A stretch of DNA of 64,000 nucleotides from Acidobacteriota bacterium (GTDB taxonomy: Bacteria > Acidobacteriota > Terriglobia > Bryobacterales > Bryobacteraceae). The notes beneath the pieces were generated by a model. It worked only from the letters and a program-made list of their open reading frames with translations, made no database searches and had not been told where the DNA came from. The position numbers and the translations under genes are program-made. Positions 57,598 to 62,698 of this stretch are shown here, one piece after another. Position 1 is the stretch's first letter, and each line of letters starts with the position of its first letter. The stretch is taken from positions 62,001 through 126,000 of the forward strand of contig JAFKEE010000025.1 in assembly GCA_017307505.1 (NCBI GenBank), read 5' to 3'.

Positions 57598-58926
57598 GTG
57601 GTGCTGTTTTCATGGAAACGTGCAGTTGTGGGAGTCGCTACGGCTTCGCTGCTTGGTCTTACCCTCTGGGGCCAGGCGGCCGCGCCGCAGTGGAAGGATC
57701 GAGCCGAGTACGACCTAGTCGAATCGATCAAGAAAGAGACAAACGCTCAGACCAAGCTTGGCTTGATTCAGAGCTGGGAGCAGAAATATCCCACTTCTGA
57801 CTTCAAGGAAGGCCGCTATGAACTTCTGGTCGGCACCTATCAGGCCATGGGCAATGCCAAGGGCATGATGGATACGGCCAAGGCGTGGCTGGCGGCGAAC
57901 CCGAAGGCGGTTCAAGCTCTGGTCTGGGTCAACCTGCTGACGATCAGCATGAACGATACCTCTCCGGCCGCGCTGGATGCCGGCGAGCAGGCCGCGAAGA
58001 CCATGCTGGGCCTGATGGACGACACATTTAGCCCGGCCCGCAAGCCTGCCCAAGTCACCGATGAGCAGTGGAAGCAGCAGCGGACCGGCACGGAATCCGT
58101 GGCCTACCGGACCCTGGGCTGGGTGGCCCTGCAGCGGCAGCAATATGAAGAAGCCGACAAGCAGCTCGTGGAATCGCTGAAGCGCAACCCGGGCGACGCG
58201 CAGGCTTCGGCCTGGGCCGGTACGGCGAATCTTCGCACGAAGAAACTGGAACGTCAGGGCATCGCTCTGTTCCATTTCTGCCGCGCGGCGGTGTACGAGG
58301 GCCAGGGCGCCTTCCCTCAGCAGACTCGCGATCAACTCCGGAAATCATTCGAGAATAATTACAAGAACTTCCATGGCGACACCAACGGCATGGATGACGT
58401 CATCGCGAAAGCTAAGGCGAGCCCCATTCCTCCGGAAGGCTTCAAGCTCGAGTCTAAGGATGAAGTCCTGATCAAGCAGGAAGAAGAGCTGAAGAAGACC
58501 AATCCGTCGCTGGCGCTCTGGATCAGCATCAAGCGCAGTCTCTCCGGCGAGAATGGCGCTGCCTACTTTGATTCCACCCTGAAGAATGCCGCCATCCCGG
58601 GCGGCGTGGATGTGGGTGGCACAAAGGTGGAGAAGTTCAAGGGCAAAGTGGTGAGCTGCGATGCGCCGAAGAAGGCCAAGAAGGTGGTTGTCGGCATCAG
58701 TTCGCCGGATATGAGCGAAGTATCGCTGGTATTCGAAAACCCGCTGGCAGTCTGCCCCGACCCTGGGATCGAGTTGGAGTTCAGCGGAGCGGCTTCTGCG
58801 TTCACGCCTGATCCTTTCAACCTGAGCCTCGATGTGGAACCGAAGGACGTATCCGGTCTGCCGGCACCTCCGGCCCCGGCGGCCCGCAAGGCGGCTCCGG
58901 CGAAAAAGGCCGCACCAAAGAAGTAA
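57598..58926 (+). CDS. Exported TPR-containing protein
   Basis: About 442 aa, starting from a GTG; TTTAGGAGG lies 3 bases before 57598 and 6 bases before a second GTG at 57601, which may be the better start. An ATG at 57596 is out of frame. Signal peptide ends around LWGQAAAP. TPR-like helical repeats occupy roughly 40-230 (LVGTYQAMGNAKGMMDTAKAWLAANPK, LGWVALQRQQYEEADKQLVESLKRNP). A beta-rich C-terminal domain (KVEKFKGKVVSCDAPKKAKKVVVG) is followed by an Ala/Pro/Lys tail. No enzyme motif. A strong terminator follows. Confidence 0.82.
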   Translation: MVLFSWKRAVVGVATASLLGLTLWGQAAAPQWKDRAEYDLVESIKKETNAQTKLGLIQSWEQKYPTSDFKEGRYELLVGTYQAMGNAKGMMDTAKAWLAANPKAVQALVWVNLLTISMNDTSPAALDAGEQAAKTMLGLMDDTFSPARKPAQVTDEQWKQQRTGTESVAYRTLGWVALQRQQYEEADKQLVESLKRNPGDAQASAWAGTANLRTKKLERQGIALFHFCRAAVYEGQGAFPQQTRDQLRKSFENNYKNFHGDTNGMDDVIAKAKASPIPPEGFKLESKDEVLIKQEEELKKTNPSLALWISIKRSLSGENGAAYFDSTLKNAAIPGGVDVGGTKVEKFKGKVVSCDAPKKAKKVVVGISSPDMSEVSLVFENPLAVCPDPGIELEFSGAASAFTPDPFNLSLDVEPKDVSGLPAPPAPAARKAAPAKKAAPKK

Positions 58927-59001: not shown

Positions 59002-59262
59002 CTAGAACCGGAGCCGGGCAGTGGCGGGCGGCCCGGGTTGGCGCGGATTGGGTCCGGAGAGGATGAGGCTGTAAGTAACCCTGTCCCAGAAGCCCAGCTT
59101 CTGGCCGCTCTCCTCGATGGCATGCATGTAGGAAATGAACCGTTGCGCGGTGGCGGGCAGCGCCCGTACCGGTTCGATCGCCCCCAGCCCCAAGGAGACC
59201 ATCACCAGTACGGCACCGGCGAGCACCGGAGTGGATGTTCCGAACTGAATTGGCCTGCTCAC
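59002..59262 (-). CDS. Very small exported protein, family copy 1 of 3
   Basis: An 86-aa protein from a GTG at 59262 (the same start context, GGTGTGA, as its two siblings). A hydrophobic segment (LAGAVLVMVSLGLGAIE) is followed by PVRALPATAQRFISYMHAIEESGQKLGFWDRVTYSLILSGPNPR, which is nearly identical in layout to the copies at 61206-61466 and 61612-61863. It is likely exported or membrane-anchored. No known domain. It is divergent from the TIGR03118 protein, with 151 bases between starts, and carries the shared upstream motif 44 bases before its start. Confidence 0.75.
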   Translation of the reverse strand: MSRPIQFGTSTPVLAGAVLVMVSLGLGAIEPVRALPATAQRFISYMHAIEESGQKLGFWDRVTYSLILSGPNPRQPGPPATARLRF

Positions 59263-59305
59263 ACCCTCTAGGACGACTGAACCCGCGCGGAAGTCCACCC
59301 GCGGC

Positions 59306-59323
59306 ACTTTAAGATCTGTAAAA
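59306..59323 (-). promoter_or_regulatory. Shared upstream motif of small-protein copy 1
   Basis: On the minus strand TTTTACAGATCTTAAAGT lies 43 bases before the GTG start. The same motif is found 44-45 bases upstream of both other family members. Confidence 0.5.
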
Positions 59324-59413
59324 CTACCCGTTCCCGCCCAACCGCGGCAAATAGAATGTTCCGCACGGATGAGCCCTGTGTCTCAACACCACAGTTCCAA
59401 CTGGAGGGTGTTA

Positions 59414-61054
59414 ATGAAGAAAATTCTGGGTACAGGGATTTTTTGCCTCGCGCTGGCTTCGCTGCCGGCGAGCGCATTCAGCAGCGGACCGCGGGTGCGG
59501 TTTACGGGCGCACCTGGCGACAACCCGCTCGCCTGCACGCAGTGCCACGCAGGCACGCTGAACTCCTTCAGCGGGTCAGTCAGAGTGGTTTATCCGGGAG
59601 GCACTTCCTACAAACCAGGCGCGACTTACCGGCTGATCGTCCAGGTAAGAGACCCCGAGCAGTCCCGCTGGGGGTTTGAATTGACGGCCCGGCTGGCGTC
59701 AGAGCCTATTAACGGCCAGGCCGGTGACCTGAACAATGTCGACGGCAATGCCCGCGTCCTGTGCGACGGCAGCGTCGCAGGGACGCCGAAACCCTGCTCA
59801 GCCGACAAGCCGGTGCAGTTCGCCGAGCATGTCTCGGCCGGCACGCGGCCCGGCACACCTAACGGAGTGGACTTCGAAATCGACTGGACAGCACCGCCGG
59901 CCGGGTCGGGCGCAGTCACGTTCTATGTCGCGGGCAATGCGGCCAACAACAGCGGAACTCCGGCAGGCGACCATATCTACACCAGCAGCCTGAGCATCAC
60001 CGAGGCCACGGGCAGCGGCGGCGGGTTGCAGGTGCCCTCGACCGCGTATGACGTGCGTCACATGACGTCCGACCTCACGGGCGGCTGGGGCGAGCGGCTG
60101 GATCCGAACCTGAAGAACCCCTGGGCCATCGCCATGAGCCCGACTTCGCCTTTTTGGATCTCCAACGCCGGCAGCGGCACCGCGACCGTGTACGACACGA
60201 ATGGAGCACCGGCGCCGGCCGCGAATCCGCTGATCGTAAAGATTCCAAATGGCGCGGGCCAGAATGGTCCCGGGCGCCCCACCGGGCAGATCTGGAACGG
60301 CACTCCGGGCTTCGAAGTGGCCAGCGGCAAGCCGGCAACCTTCCTCTTCTCCACCGAGAATGGCGGTATCGCAGGCTGGAACCGAGACGTGGACCCCGGC
60401 AATGCCGTGCTGAAAGTGGACAACTCGGGGGCGGTTTACAAGGGCCTGGCGATGGGCATCAGCGGCAACGGGCCGATGTTGTATGCGCCGAACTTCAGTT
60501 CGGGCAATATCGACGTGTTCGACTATACCTTCCAGGCAGTTCCCGCGCCGGGCGGCTTCAAGGATCCGAACCTGCCGGCCGGTTTCGCTCCGTTCAACAT
60601 CCAGCGCTTCGGCAAGCGCCTCTTTGTGGCCTATGCCAAGCAAAACGCGGCGAAGACACAGGATGTGCCCGGAGACGGCAACGGGATCATCAGCGTGTTT
60701 GACCTGGACGGCAACTTCCAGCAGAGGCTGGTGACGGGCGGCGTGTTGAACTCCCCGTGGGGCATGGCGATCGCGCCGGCGTTCTTTGGGGATTACAGCA
60801 ACACCCTGCTGGTGGGCAACTTCGGCGACGGGCGCATCAATGCGTTCGATCTGACAAGTGGCAAGCCTGTGGGCATGTTGACGTACCGGGACGGCTCACC
60901 GGTGGCTCTGGAGGGCCTCTGGGGGCTCACATTCGGCAACGGACGCAGCGGTGGCGACGCTAACACACTGTATTTCACAGCGGCGGTTTCCGGGGGCCCG
61001 TCCGGGGCCAAGGGCGACCACGGGGTGTTTGGCTCCGTCACAGCGCTGCCTTAG
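59414..61054 (+). CDS. Secreted protein with N-terminal CxxCH module and TIGR03118-like propeller
   Basis: A 546-aa protein starting at the ATG at 59414 (MKKILGTG); the frame is open 15 codons further. Signal peptide ends near ASAF. Residues about 25-205 form a choice-of-anchor/Reeler-like beta domain beginning TGAPGDNPLACTQCHAG, whose single CTQCH could bind a c-type heme, although no other heme ligand can be assigned. The rest follows the TIGR03118 pattern (LDPNLKNPWAIAMSPTSPFWISNAGSGTATVYD, VLNSPWGMAIAP, LWGLTFGNG), probably a beta-propeller. Function unknown; surrounded on both sides by members of the 86-aa family. Confidence 0.85.
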   Translation: MKKILGTGIFCLALASLPASAFSSGPRVRFTGAPGDNPLACTQCHAGTLNSFSGSVRVVYPGGTSYKPGATYRLIVQVRDPEQSRWGFELTARLASEPINGQAGDLNNVDGNARVLCDGSVAGTPKPCSADKPVQFAEHVSAGTRPGTPNGVDFEIDWTAPPAGSGAVTFYVAGNAANNSGTPAGDHIYTSSLSITEATGSGGGLQVPSTAYDVRHMTSDLTGGWGERLDPNLKNPWAIAMSPTSPFWISNAGSGTATVYDTNGAPAPAANPLIVKIPNGAGQNGPGRPTGQIWNGTPGFEVASGKPATFLFSTENGGIAGWNRDVDPGNAVLKVDNSGAVYKGLAMGISGNGPMLYAPNFSSGNIDVFDYTFQAVPAPGGFKDPNLPAGFAPFNIQRFGKRLFVAYAKQNAAKTQDVPGDGNGIISVFDLDGNFQQRLVTGGVLNSPWGMAIAPAFFGDYSNTLLVGNFGDGRINAFDLTSGKPVGMLTYRDGSPVALEGLWGLTFGNGRSGGDANTLYFTAAVSGGPSGAKGDHGVFGSVTALP

Positions 61055-61096
61055 TCTGCGGACAGGGTGGTTAGAGAGATCCACCCTGATCCCAGT

Positions 61097-61145
61097 GGCC
61101 GGCGTGCGCGCCTGAGACTCTTTCAGCGCACACGCCGGCCTTTTT
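61097..61145 (+). terminator. Rho-independent terminator after the TIGR03118 gene
   Basis: Stem GGCCGGCGTGCGCGC / GCGCACACGCCGGCC (15 bp, one mismatch, 14-base loop), followed by TTTTTGCG. It also faces the convergent small-protein gene. Confidence 0.9.
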
Positions 61146-61205
61146 GCGTCGGGGCAACCCCGCGGTCAGAAGGCGAAGGAGGAAGGCAAGTCCGGAGCAG
61201 CTCCG

Positions 61206-61466
61206 CTAGATGCGGCCGGTGGCCGGGCGGACCGGACGGACCTGCTTGGGATTCGGTCCGGACAGAATCAGGCTGTAGGTAATCTTGTCCGCCAGGCTCA
61301 AGTCCTGGCCACTCTTGTCGATGGCGTGCATGTAGGACACGAAGCGGTGGGCGGTGATGGGCAGAGCGCGCACGGGCGAGATGGCTGCTAGGCCGAGCAA
61401 GGTGAGAGCCAGTGCGGCCGATGCGACCACCGGAGTGCTTTTCCCGAACTGTTTATTTCTTCTCAC
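61206..61466 (-). CDS. Very small exported protein, family copy 2 of 3
   Basis: An 86-aa protein from a GTG at 61466 in the family context GGTGTGA; an in-frame ATG lies eight codons further upstream but is not conserved among the copies. Hydrophobic VVASAALALTLLGLAAIS, then PVRALPITAHRFVSYMHAIDKSGQDLSLADKITYSLILSGPNPK, with a variable Pro/Arg C-terminus. Likely exported or anchored. Its transcript is probably separated from copy 3 by a hairpin at 61536-61576. Confidence 0.75.
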   Translation of the reverse strand: MRRNKQFGKSTPVVASAALALTLLGLAAISPVRALPITAHRFVSYMHAIDKSGQDLSLADKITYSLILSGPNPKQVRPVRPATGRI

Positions 61467-61509
61467 ACCACTTAAGACGAGCGGATTCATGGAATGGGCA
61501 CTCCGGCGA

Positions 61510-61526
61510 ACGTAAGGTTCTGTAAA
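61510..61526 (-). promoter_or_regulatory. Shared upstream motif of small-protein copy 2
   Basis: On the minus strand TTTACAGAACCTTACGT lies 43 bases before the GTG start, matching the copy 1 and copy 3 motifs in 12 or more positions. It is not inside a gene. Confidence 0.5.
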
Positions 61527-61535
61527 TCTGTGAAA

Positions 61536-61576
61536 CCTCGGGCCTGCACGCACGAAGGCCCGCAAAGAGCCCGAGG
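61536..61576 (-). terminator. Hairpin between small-protein copies 3 and 2
   Basis: Perfect arms CCTCGGGC (61536-61543) and GCCCGAGG (61569-61576) with a 25-base partly self-complementary loop. On the minus strand it is downstream of copy 3 and followed by TTTC. Moderate candidate for an intrinsic terminator. Confidence 0.5.
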
Positions 61577-61611
61577 CTCCGCGCCAGCCGATGAGTTGCA
61601 ACGGCCGGAAG

Positions 61612-61863
61612 TCAGATGCGGGCCTGGGTGGGGTTAGGTTGTTTGGGATTAGGTCCCGAGAGCATCAGGCTGTAGGTGACTTTGTCCCACAGGCTGAGGT
61701 GCTGGCCGCTCTGGTCCAGGGCGGTCATGTAGCAGACGAAGCGCTGAGCCGTGGCGGGCAATGCACGCAACGGAGAGAGAGCGCCCATCCCGGACAGGAC
61801 GAGAGCGAGCACAGCCAGGGTCGCCATCGGGGCGCCGGTTCCGAACTGTGTTTGTCTCTTCAC
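61612..61863 (-). CDS. Very small exported protein, family copy 3 of 3
   Basis: An 83-aa protein from a GTG at 61863. Hydrophobic MATLAVLALVLSGMGALS is followed by PLRALPATAQRFVCYMTALDQSGQHLSLWDKVTYSLMLSGPNPK. The LSLWDKVTYSL-LSGPNP core is shared with the other two copies; YMHA is YMTA here and a Cys appears just before it. It starts 30 bases downstream of the end of the 61894-62205 gene on the same strand. Function unknown. Confidence 0.75.
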   Translation of the reverse strand: MKRQTQFGTGAPMATLAVLALVLSGMGALSPLRALPATAQRFVCYMTALDQSGQHLSLWDKVTYSLMLSGPNPKQPNPTQARI

Positions 61864-61893
61864 ACCTAGTAATACGGTGGAAAGGGGCAGATG

Positions 61894-62205
61894 TTAGCGC
61901 AAAGCTGACTTCAGATCTGTAAAAAGCCGGCGGGCGGCTTCGGCTTCGCCAGGCTGGGCCGGGCGTTCTTCGCCCTTGGCGACAAACCACGCCTTCCCCG
62001 CCCTGTCCACCAGGGCCGCGAAGCCGCCTTTTTCGCTGAGCAGGCCGGGCGAACCGATCGCGCCAAAGCCTTCGCCCCGGCGCTCGACCAGGACGACACA
62101 GCCATCGCGCGAGAAGACGAAGTGCGAAGGTGTTTGCGGCGTGGGAATGATCTCGATGCCCGCGGCCGCGAGCTTTTCCAGTTGAATCAGGATGTCCGGG
62201 GTCAC
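61894..62205 (-). CDS. Hypothetical protein downstream of the DUF151 gene
   Basis: About 103 aa from a GTG at 62205, 7 bases past the DUF151 stop. Sequence such as GIEIIPTPQTPSHFVFSRDGCVVLVERRGEGFG and GLLSEKGGFAALVDRAGKAWFVAKG is consistent with a compact alpha/beta or beta protein. No family is recognised. The open frame extends to 62277 but would overlap the DUF151 gene. Position in the miaB operon suggests co-expression. Confidence 0.6.
   Translation of the reverse strand: MTPDILIQLEKLAAAGIEIIPTPQTPSHFVFSRDGCVVLVERRGEGFGAIGSPGLLSEKGGFAALVDRAGKAWFVAKGEERPAQPGEAEAARRLFTDLKSALR
61908..61925 (-). promoter_or_regulatory. Shared upstream motif of small-protein copy 3
   Basis: On the minus strand TTTTTACAGATCTGAAGT lies 44 bases before the GTG start. 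It overlaps the last codons of the hypothetical gene at 61894-62205, so its conservation here is not explained by being non-coding. Confidence 0.5.
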
Positions 62206-62212
62206 GGCAAAC

Positions 62213-62698
62213 CTACATTTTGTAGCGCCCGAAGTCCTCGTCGTTGAGCCCTTCCAGCCAGCGCCGGAGTTCCTCATTGGTCACCTTATCGGAGACATTG
62301 GCCGTGCTTTTCGAGGTTTTGAGGACCTGCTCTTCTACGTAGATGGGGCAGTCCAGCCGCAGTGCGAGGGCCAGGGCGTCGCTGGGACGCGAATCGATGC
62401 TGATGATCTCGCCGTTCCGCTCCAGCCAGATGACGGCATAGAACGTATCGTCGCGCAGCTCGCTCACAACAACTTTGCGTACTCCTGTTTCGAGGCCAAG
62501 CAGCACATTCTTGATGAGATCGTGCGTCATGGGGCGCGGCGTGCTCACCTTCTCGATCTCCAGGGCGATCGCGTTGGCTTCGTAGATGCCTACCCAGATG
62601 GGCAGGATCTGGCCGCCGTTGGCATCCTTGAGAATCACGATGGGCATATTGGTGACAGGGTCCATCATCAGCCCGCGAATCTTCATCTCGACTTCCAT
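62213..62698 (-). CDS. Bifunctional nuclease family protein (DUF151)
   Basis: A 161-aa protein with the DUF151 core: LPIWVGIYEANAIALEIEKV, RPMTHDLIKNVL, AVIWLERNGEIISIDSRPSDALALALRL, PIYVEEQVL. The family is widespread, and some members have RNase/DNase activity in plants; the bacterial role is unclear. The ATG at 62698 may be replaced by an ATG four codons in, which has GGAAG 5 bases upstream. It starts 16 bases after the miaB end, in one operon. Confidence 0.88.
   Translation of the reverse strand: MEVEMKIRGLMMDPVTNMPIVILKDANGGQILPIWVGIYEANAIALEIEKVSTPRPMTHDLIKNVLLGLETGVRKVVVSELRDDTFYAVIWLERNGEIISIDSRPSDALALALRLDCPIYVEEQVLKTSKSTANVSDKVTNEELRRWLEGLNDEDFGRYKM

Follow-up and report, generated by a model that had tools for sequence, protein, structure and literature searches.

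A triplicated small-protein gene and its putative ECF-type promoter regions in a Bryobacteraceae genome

Introduction

Why do three small genes of one acidobacterial genome carry a similar motif at nearly the same distance upstream, even where the motif falls inside the coding region of another gene? The genes lie on the minus strand in a 64,000-nucleotide stretch of DNA from an Acidobacteriota bacterium of the family Bryobacteraceae (assembly GCA_017307505.1, contig JAFKEE010000025.1, positions 62,001 to 126,000), hereafter called the window. A first-pass annotation of the window proposed that they encode exported proteins of an undescribed family and that the motif is a common regulatory or processing signal. 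To our knowledge, regulation in Acidobacteria is poorly known. We find that the locus is probably best explained by local triplication of a family-specific small-protein gene, each copy having its own promoter region of the type used by extracytoplasmic function (ECF) sigma factors.

Three paralogous genes of a seemingly undescribed protein family

The open reading frames (ORFs) and their alignment confirm three related small genes, all of which start with GTG within GGTGTGA (Table 1). They are paralogs: copies 2 and 3 encode proteins with 65% and 62% identity to copy 1, respectively, and the blocks P(V/L)RALP.TA.RF..YM.A and ..TYSL.LSGPNP are common to all copies. Each of the three copies is under purifying selection, the ratio of nonsynonymous to synonymous substitution rates (dN/dS) being 0.02–0.25 between orthologous copies in the three genomes that have them (the window genome, G005 and G006). 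Because of these ratios, all three ORFs look like real, protein-coding genes. A search of the window's own genome gave convincing scores at these three genes only.

The proteins have the N-terminal hydrophobic segment expected of small proteins exported by the Sec pathway. Such a segment was found in 77 of 86 homologs (mean hydropathy of at least 1.6 over 17 amino acids near the N-terminus) and is followed by the family core A..F..Y...L......W/VERFVxSLVLA; an A-X-A-like VRA cleavage-type site was also read by eye. The small protein is thus probably exported, with the hydrophobic segment as signal or anchor. A structure predicted by a model from 18 sequences has three helices and is of low confidence (mean predicted local distance difference test score, pLDDT, of 59).

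With a profile built from 21 relatives (E ≤ 0.001), the protein family was found in 83 of 237 genomes of the window's taxonomic family, and these fall into 40 of its 76 genera; an earlier profile had detected it in 81 of the 237 genomes at E ≤ 0.01. The carriers include Candidatus Solibacter, Bryobacterales and Solibacteraceae assemblies (15 loci). In a phylum sample of 396 genomes, three genomes besides the window's own gave four marginal matches, all within larger open frames. The three copies had no match in Pfam, where 21 members gave only single-member matches with E of 0.045 or worse; nothing was above cut-off in NCBIfam (best E 0.0065, a weak match of one member, and 0.04 for the window copies) or among PDB sequences (best E 0.57). 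No description of this small-protein family or of its promoter in Acidobacteria was recognised in the open-licence literature. In these searches it is an undescribed small-protein family, known so far from one family of soil Acidobacteria apart from the marginal matches. The profile search for homologs and the database comparisons agree with the first-pass annotation in both respects, a shared family and an undescribed one.

A promoter-like pair before the start codons

Alignment of the upstream regions gave a family consensus GCTAAC-N16/17-CGTCTTA before the start codons, with the start codon about 9 nucleotides (nt) after CGTC. The set consisted of 83 homologs, that is, 86 matches in the window and 79 fetched loci, minus 3 without enough upstream DNA. 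The pair AAC-N16/17-CGTC is present upstream of 65 of these 83; 200 randomised sets, obtained by first-order resampling, averaged 2.2 and did not exceed 8. Spacers of 16 and 17 nt were observed 23 and 42 times, respectively, and spacers of 15 and 18 nt never, while a few other spacers occurred in one to four cases each. As related genomes are not independent, the pair was also counted by genus, and it was found in 33 of 36 genera, compared to 6 of 190 control neighbouring genes at the same loci. The promoter-like pair is conserved family-wide, and its AAC at -35, CGTC at -10 and spacer of 16–17 nt are those of a generic ECF-sigma promoter, to which the window's own copies do not strictly conform.

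The first in-frame ATG or GTG is located 8 or 9 nt after CGT(C/A) in 39 of 70 cases, and not more than 15 nt after it in 63 of 70. Counting from the C of CGTC, position 11 holds a G in 50 of 65 cases and is a plausible transcript start. Since the start codon follows CGTC by about 9 nt, the transcript is expected to start at or near the start codon, and leaderless genes are likewise recognised by a -10 signal at such a distance, about 10 nt. This ECF-type -35/-10 pair just before the start codon, a more general signal than the upstream motif, was overlooked in the first-pass annotation.

The upstream element

The motif noticed in the first-pass annotation begins further upstream, and its spacing is near-fixed as claimed: its first base is 60 nt before the GTG in all three copies, so that a 17-nt motif leaves a gap of 43 nt. 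The invariant 8-mer core of the three copies, TTTACAGA, starts at this position, and an invariant run of 8 was obtained in none of 5000 column permutations of the three upstream regions. A count by eye over the 17 nt gave 13 positions at which copy 2 agrees with copy 1, and likewise 13 for copy 3. The full 17-mer with up to 3 mismatches finds copy 1 only in the window (0.01 matches expected), and a 14-mer has four window matches that include all three copies (1.94 expected). In copy 3 the motif, TTTACAGATCTGAAG, provides the codons FTDLK close to the end of ORF 61894–62277, in line with the earlier remark that one motif copy lies in another gene. Among the relatives examined, the element TTTACAGATCTTAAA was seen in two genera. 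In the window's genus, 13 of 14 genes have it starting at -60 and the remaining one at -61; in genus g45 it starts at -59 in four of five genes, and also in the fifth if a GTG start is used instead of TTG.

The most serious alternative, which we nevertheless regard as improbable, is that the TTTACAGATC motif is a mere fossil: the upstream gene's 3' end (FTDLK) would have been co-duplicated with the small gene, and the motif would have no regulatory role. The upstream gene does have codons FTDLK or FTELK both at copy 3 and in single-copy relatives of the genus, the similarity among the upstream regions of the copies begins near the motif, and the motif is absent elsewhere in the genome and only partly kept in copy 2. 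However, the DNA is conserved beyond the needs of the protein. In all 13 genomes of the two genera that have the gene, the first two codons of the motif are TTT and ACA, and in a gap-free analysis of these genomes 86% of the motif's five codons end in A or T, compared to 26% of the 24 preceding codons. Upstream of copy 1, where the DNA is noncoding, a 17-nt run with the motif is invariant in three genomes, although the coding sequence of copy 1 has a synonymous distance (dS) of 0.66–0.95 between the same genomes; the region overall is 44% invariant, and no such run appeared in 5000 permutations. A further argument comes from G005, where a noncoding second copy of the motif beside copy 3 is also retained at -60. 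At this locus (L037), the upstream gene's 3' end is present twice in tandem before copy 3, and the coding one of the two is the more distant. Because of the A/T-ending codons in 13 genomes and the invariant noncoding run at copy 1, the motif has the properties of a functional DNA element, one that overlaps a coding end and travelled with the small gene when this was duplicated.

The motif is constrained as DNA though coding in copy 3, and therefore the idea of a functional signal survives. What remains of the common regulator or processing signal proposed earlier is a shared cis signal with DNA-level constraint, and not a genome-wide regulator site: a search of the whole genome for TTTACAGATCTKAA with up to one mismatch found copies 1 and 3 only, and a genome-wide regulon of the upstream motif was rejected on this ground. 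When the upstream regions of homologs are aligned, the motif is recovered in two genera, and the more general signal is the AAC/CGTC pair.

A second alternative, less probable again, is that a specific activator binds the upstream element, or the alpha subunit of RNA polymerase does (an UP element), and that the element sets expression from an ordinary sigma-70 promoter, with no ECF factor involved. TTTACA resembles a -35 hexamer, the element keeps a near-fixed position of -59 to -61, and A/T-rich elements at fixed distance occur in some other genera. Against this, no TATAAT-like hexamer was seen by eye 16–18 nt after TTTACA in any window copy, so TTTACA was rejected as a sigma-70 -35, and the pair that is conserved family-wide is AAC/CGTC with its 16/17 spacing. 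As for the elements of other genera, a conserved CGTTAAGTTTTGTCAA-like element is found at -33/-32 from AAC (L137, L140, L144 and related loci), and all 12 best matches (score of at least 11) have their start 32 or 33 nt upstream of AAC, against an expectation of about 1.2. Finally, the conserved stretch from CGTC to GTG could hardly be an RNA-level translation or processing signal: CGTC and GGTGTGA are indeed located at the start codon, but the AAC partner stands 16 or 17 and never 15 or 18 nt away, the signature of a two-element promoter, and a structured RNA was rejected, as Rfam gave no match at gathering score and three weak ones outside the promoter regions.

Observations that weigh against an ECF-type promoter

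Several observations count against the explanation by triplicated ECF-type promoter regions. The pair is degenerate in the three-copy genomes, with CGTA in copy 3, GGAC or GTAC in place of AAC in copy 1, and no recognisable -35 in copy 2. The 18 of 83 homologs without AAC-N16/17-CGTC comprise all nine genes of the three-copy genomes, all five of g45, both of g12 and both of g71. The element of copy 2 is only partly conserved: ATTTACA is kept, and the longest run, at CTCGTCTTA, is 9 nt (55 of 5000 permutations). Other genera have no element or a different A/T-rich one about 5 nt further away from the -35, and one upstream element for all genera is not claimed. Nor is the element a simple replacement of the -35, the g12 and g71 genes without the pair being also without the element. 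No sigma factor was identified or linked with the promoter, and the strict string GCTAAC-N16/17-CGTCTTA, with 45 matches in 237 genomes, is not enriched, its backward control being commoner. Therefore no regulon can be defined for this string, and there is no large regulon that would support a sigma factor; a genome-wide regulon was rejected accordingly.

In g45, as in the three-copy genomes, the element is found together with a weak -35. We considered it as a substitute for a lost -35, a suggestion weakened by five single-copy genomes of the genus that have both.

Among the 45 strict matches, 22 are at the small gene, and the other 23 were all inspected. Four of the latter precede genes of a 102-amino-acid protein family, three precede a PadR regulator and one a MacB-like permease; a few of the remainder precede genes with products that look exported by eye, and the rest have no clear target. 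The PadR genes and the permease ORF belong to other genera (L207, L208, L209 and L170), with the string 18–27 nt before the former and 30 nt before the latter. The 102-amino-acid family (L162, L163, L166 and L180, in four genomes) has no Pfam match above cut-off. It was found in 8 of 121 relatives, with TAAC-N15-18-CGTC upstream at 3 of 12 matched places, so that we rejected it as a second target of general occurrence and regard it as a partial co-target at best.

Structure and origin of the locus

Relatives normally have a single copy of the small gene, and three copies occur only in the window genome and its close relatives G005 and G006. In the five single-copy relatives of the genus, MiaB, the bifunctional nuclease and the gene of about 127 amino acids are followed by the small gene on the same strand; the convergent TPR gene comes next in four of them (the contig of the fifth ends there), and two transporter genes lie beyond it in two. 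By synteny, copy 3 is in the ancestral position. The choice-of-anchor V / TIGR03118 gene separates copies 1 and 2 in all three three-copy genomes.

Table 1. Features of the triplicated locus in window coordinates
Feature	Coordinates	Strand	Remarks
Copy 1 gene	59002–59262	-	86-amino-acid small protein with N-terminal hydrophobic segment; GTG start; ORF, paralog alignment, dN/dS 0.11–0.25
Copy 2 gene	61206–61466	-	86-amino-acid paralog; GTG start; ORF, alignment, dN/dS 0.09–0.16
Copy 3 gene	61612–61863	-	83-amino-acid paralog; ancestral position; GTG start; alignment, dN/dS 0.02–0.09, synteny
-10-like CGTCCTA, copy 1	59269–59275	-	sequence and family pattern
-10-like CGTCTTA, copy 2	61473–61479	-	sequence and family pattern
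-10-like CGTATTA, copy 3	61870–61876	-	sequence and family pattern
Weak -35-like GGAC, copy 1	59293–59296	-	17 nt before CGTC
-35-like TAAC, copy 3	61893–61896	-	16 nt before CGTA; overlaps TAA stop of upstream gene
Upstream element, copy 1, TTTACAGATCTTAAAGT	59306–59322	-	noncoding; within 17-nt invariant run GTTTTACAGATCTTAAA
Upstream element, copy 2, TTTACAGAACCTTACGT	61510–61526	-	degenerate
Upstream element, copy 3, TTTACAGATCTGAAGTC	61907–61923	-	also codons FTDLKS of upstream gene
Upstream gene	61894–62277	-	127-amino-acid ORF, start uncertain; 3' end holds upstream part of copy 3 promoter
Bifunctional nuclease domain protein (PF02577)	62213–62698	-	conserved neighbour
TPR-like protein	57598–58926	+	convergent neighbour; Pfam TPR matches below cut-offs
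Choice-of-anchor V / TIGR03118 protein	59369–61054	+	likely start 59411; between copies 1 and 2 in three-copy genomes

Over the 79 fetched loci, some of which are shortened by contig ends, the convergent TPR gene was counted 58 times, the nuclease 27 times and the gene of about 127 amino acids 21 times. The TPR-like protein is thus encoded beside the small gene more often than any other, and the two may take part in a shared process. The product of the gene at 59369–61054 has a choice-of-anchor V domain followed by TIGR03118, and a CTQCH haem-binding-like motif was noted by eye. This gene and the divergent copy 1 have a common upstream region.

Discussion

We propose that one family-specific gene was triplicated locally, every copy bringing its promoter region. 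An ECF sigma factor would use the -35 GCTAAC and the -10 CGTCTTA separated by 16–17 nt, transcripts would start at, or a few bases from, the start codon and be leaderless or have an ultra-short leader, and the degenerate promoters of the window genome would still work likewise. The TTTACAGATCTTAAA element, which lies upstream of the -35 at 59–61 nt from the start codon, could serve as a binding site for an activator or for the alpha subunit of RNA polymerase; where the small gene is in its ancestral position, the final codons of the upstream gene contain this element. Both the hydrophobic segment and the type of promoter suggest that the protein may have a stress-response role in the cell envelope. 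A broader and distinctly more doubtful proposal is that Bryobacterales-type Acidobacteria have a family-specific ECF pathway with the small protein as its one conserved output, that a dedicated leaderless promoter has stayed with this one gene across 33 genera, and that one clade amplified the gene to three copies with an activator site in the codons of a neighbour gene.

A sharply defined promoter consensus on one conserved gene means that the cognate sigma factor can be sought directly. The small-protein family itself may have been missed by automatic annotation, its genes being short and often GTG-started. The locus also provides a clear case of a DNA element that is constrained although it overlaps the coding end of the gene upstream. 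Its later duplicate lies in noncoding DNA, which allows its conservation to be tested without interference from a protein sequence.

Comparison with known systems

A spacing of 16 or 17 nt combined with a CGTC -10 is usual for ECF promoters (PMC3426412, PMC6767563). The target promoters of ECF41 factors are given as TGTCACA-N16-CGTC (PMC3426412); as described there, they share with the pair reported here the CGTC -10, a spacer of 16 ± 1 and very few target genes, and ECF41 factors are found in some Acidobacteria. They differ in the -35, which is GCTAAC here and TGTCACA there, and in the target, a small hydrophobic protein here and a COE protein there (PMC3426412). Because of the -35, an identification with ECF41 promoters was rejected. 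The sigma-E envelope-stress promoters of Streptomyces coelicolor are described with the same spacer of 16 or 17 bp, and about half of the sigma-E targets are reported to be envelope proteins (PMC6767563); Streptomyces belongs to another phylum, and the promoter described here is putatively of ECF type. Leaderless (TA-led) genes were called from a promoter box lying some 10 nt upstream of the start codon, and constitute 13.3% of genes on average in three genomes of Acidobacteria (PMC3160421). The box used in that survey is the sigma-70 TANNNT, whereas the box described here is the ECF-type CGTC; in both, the -10 signal is located at about this distance from the start codon (PMC3160421).

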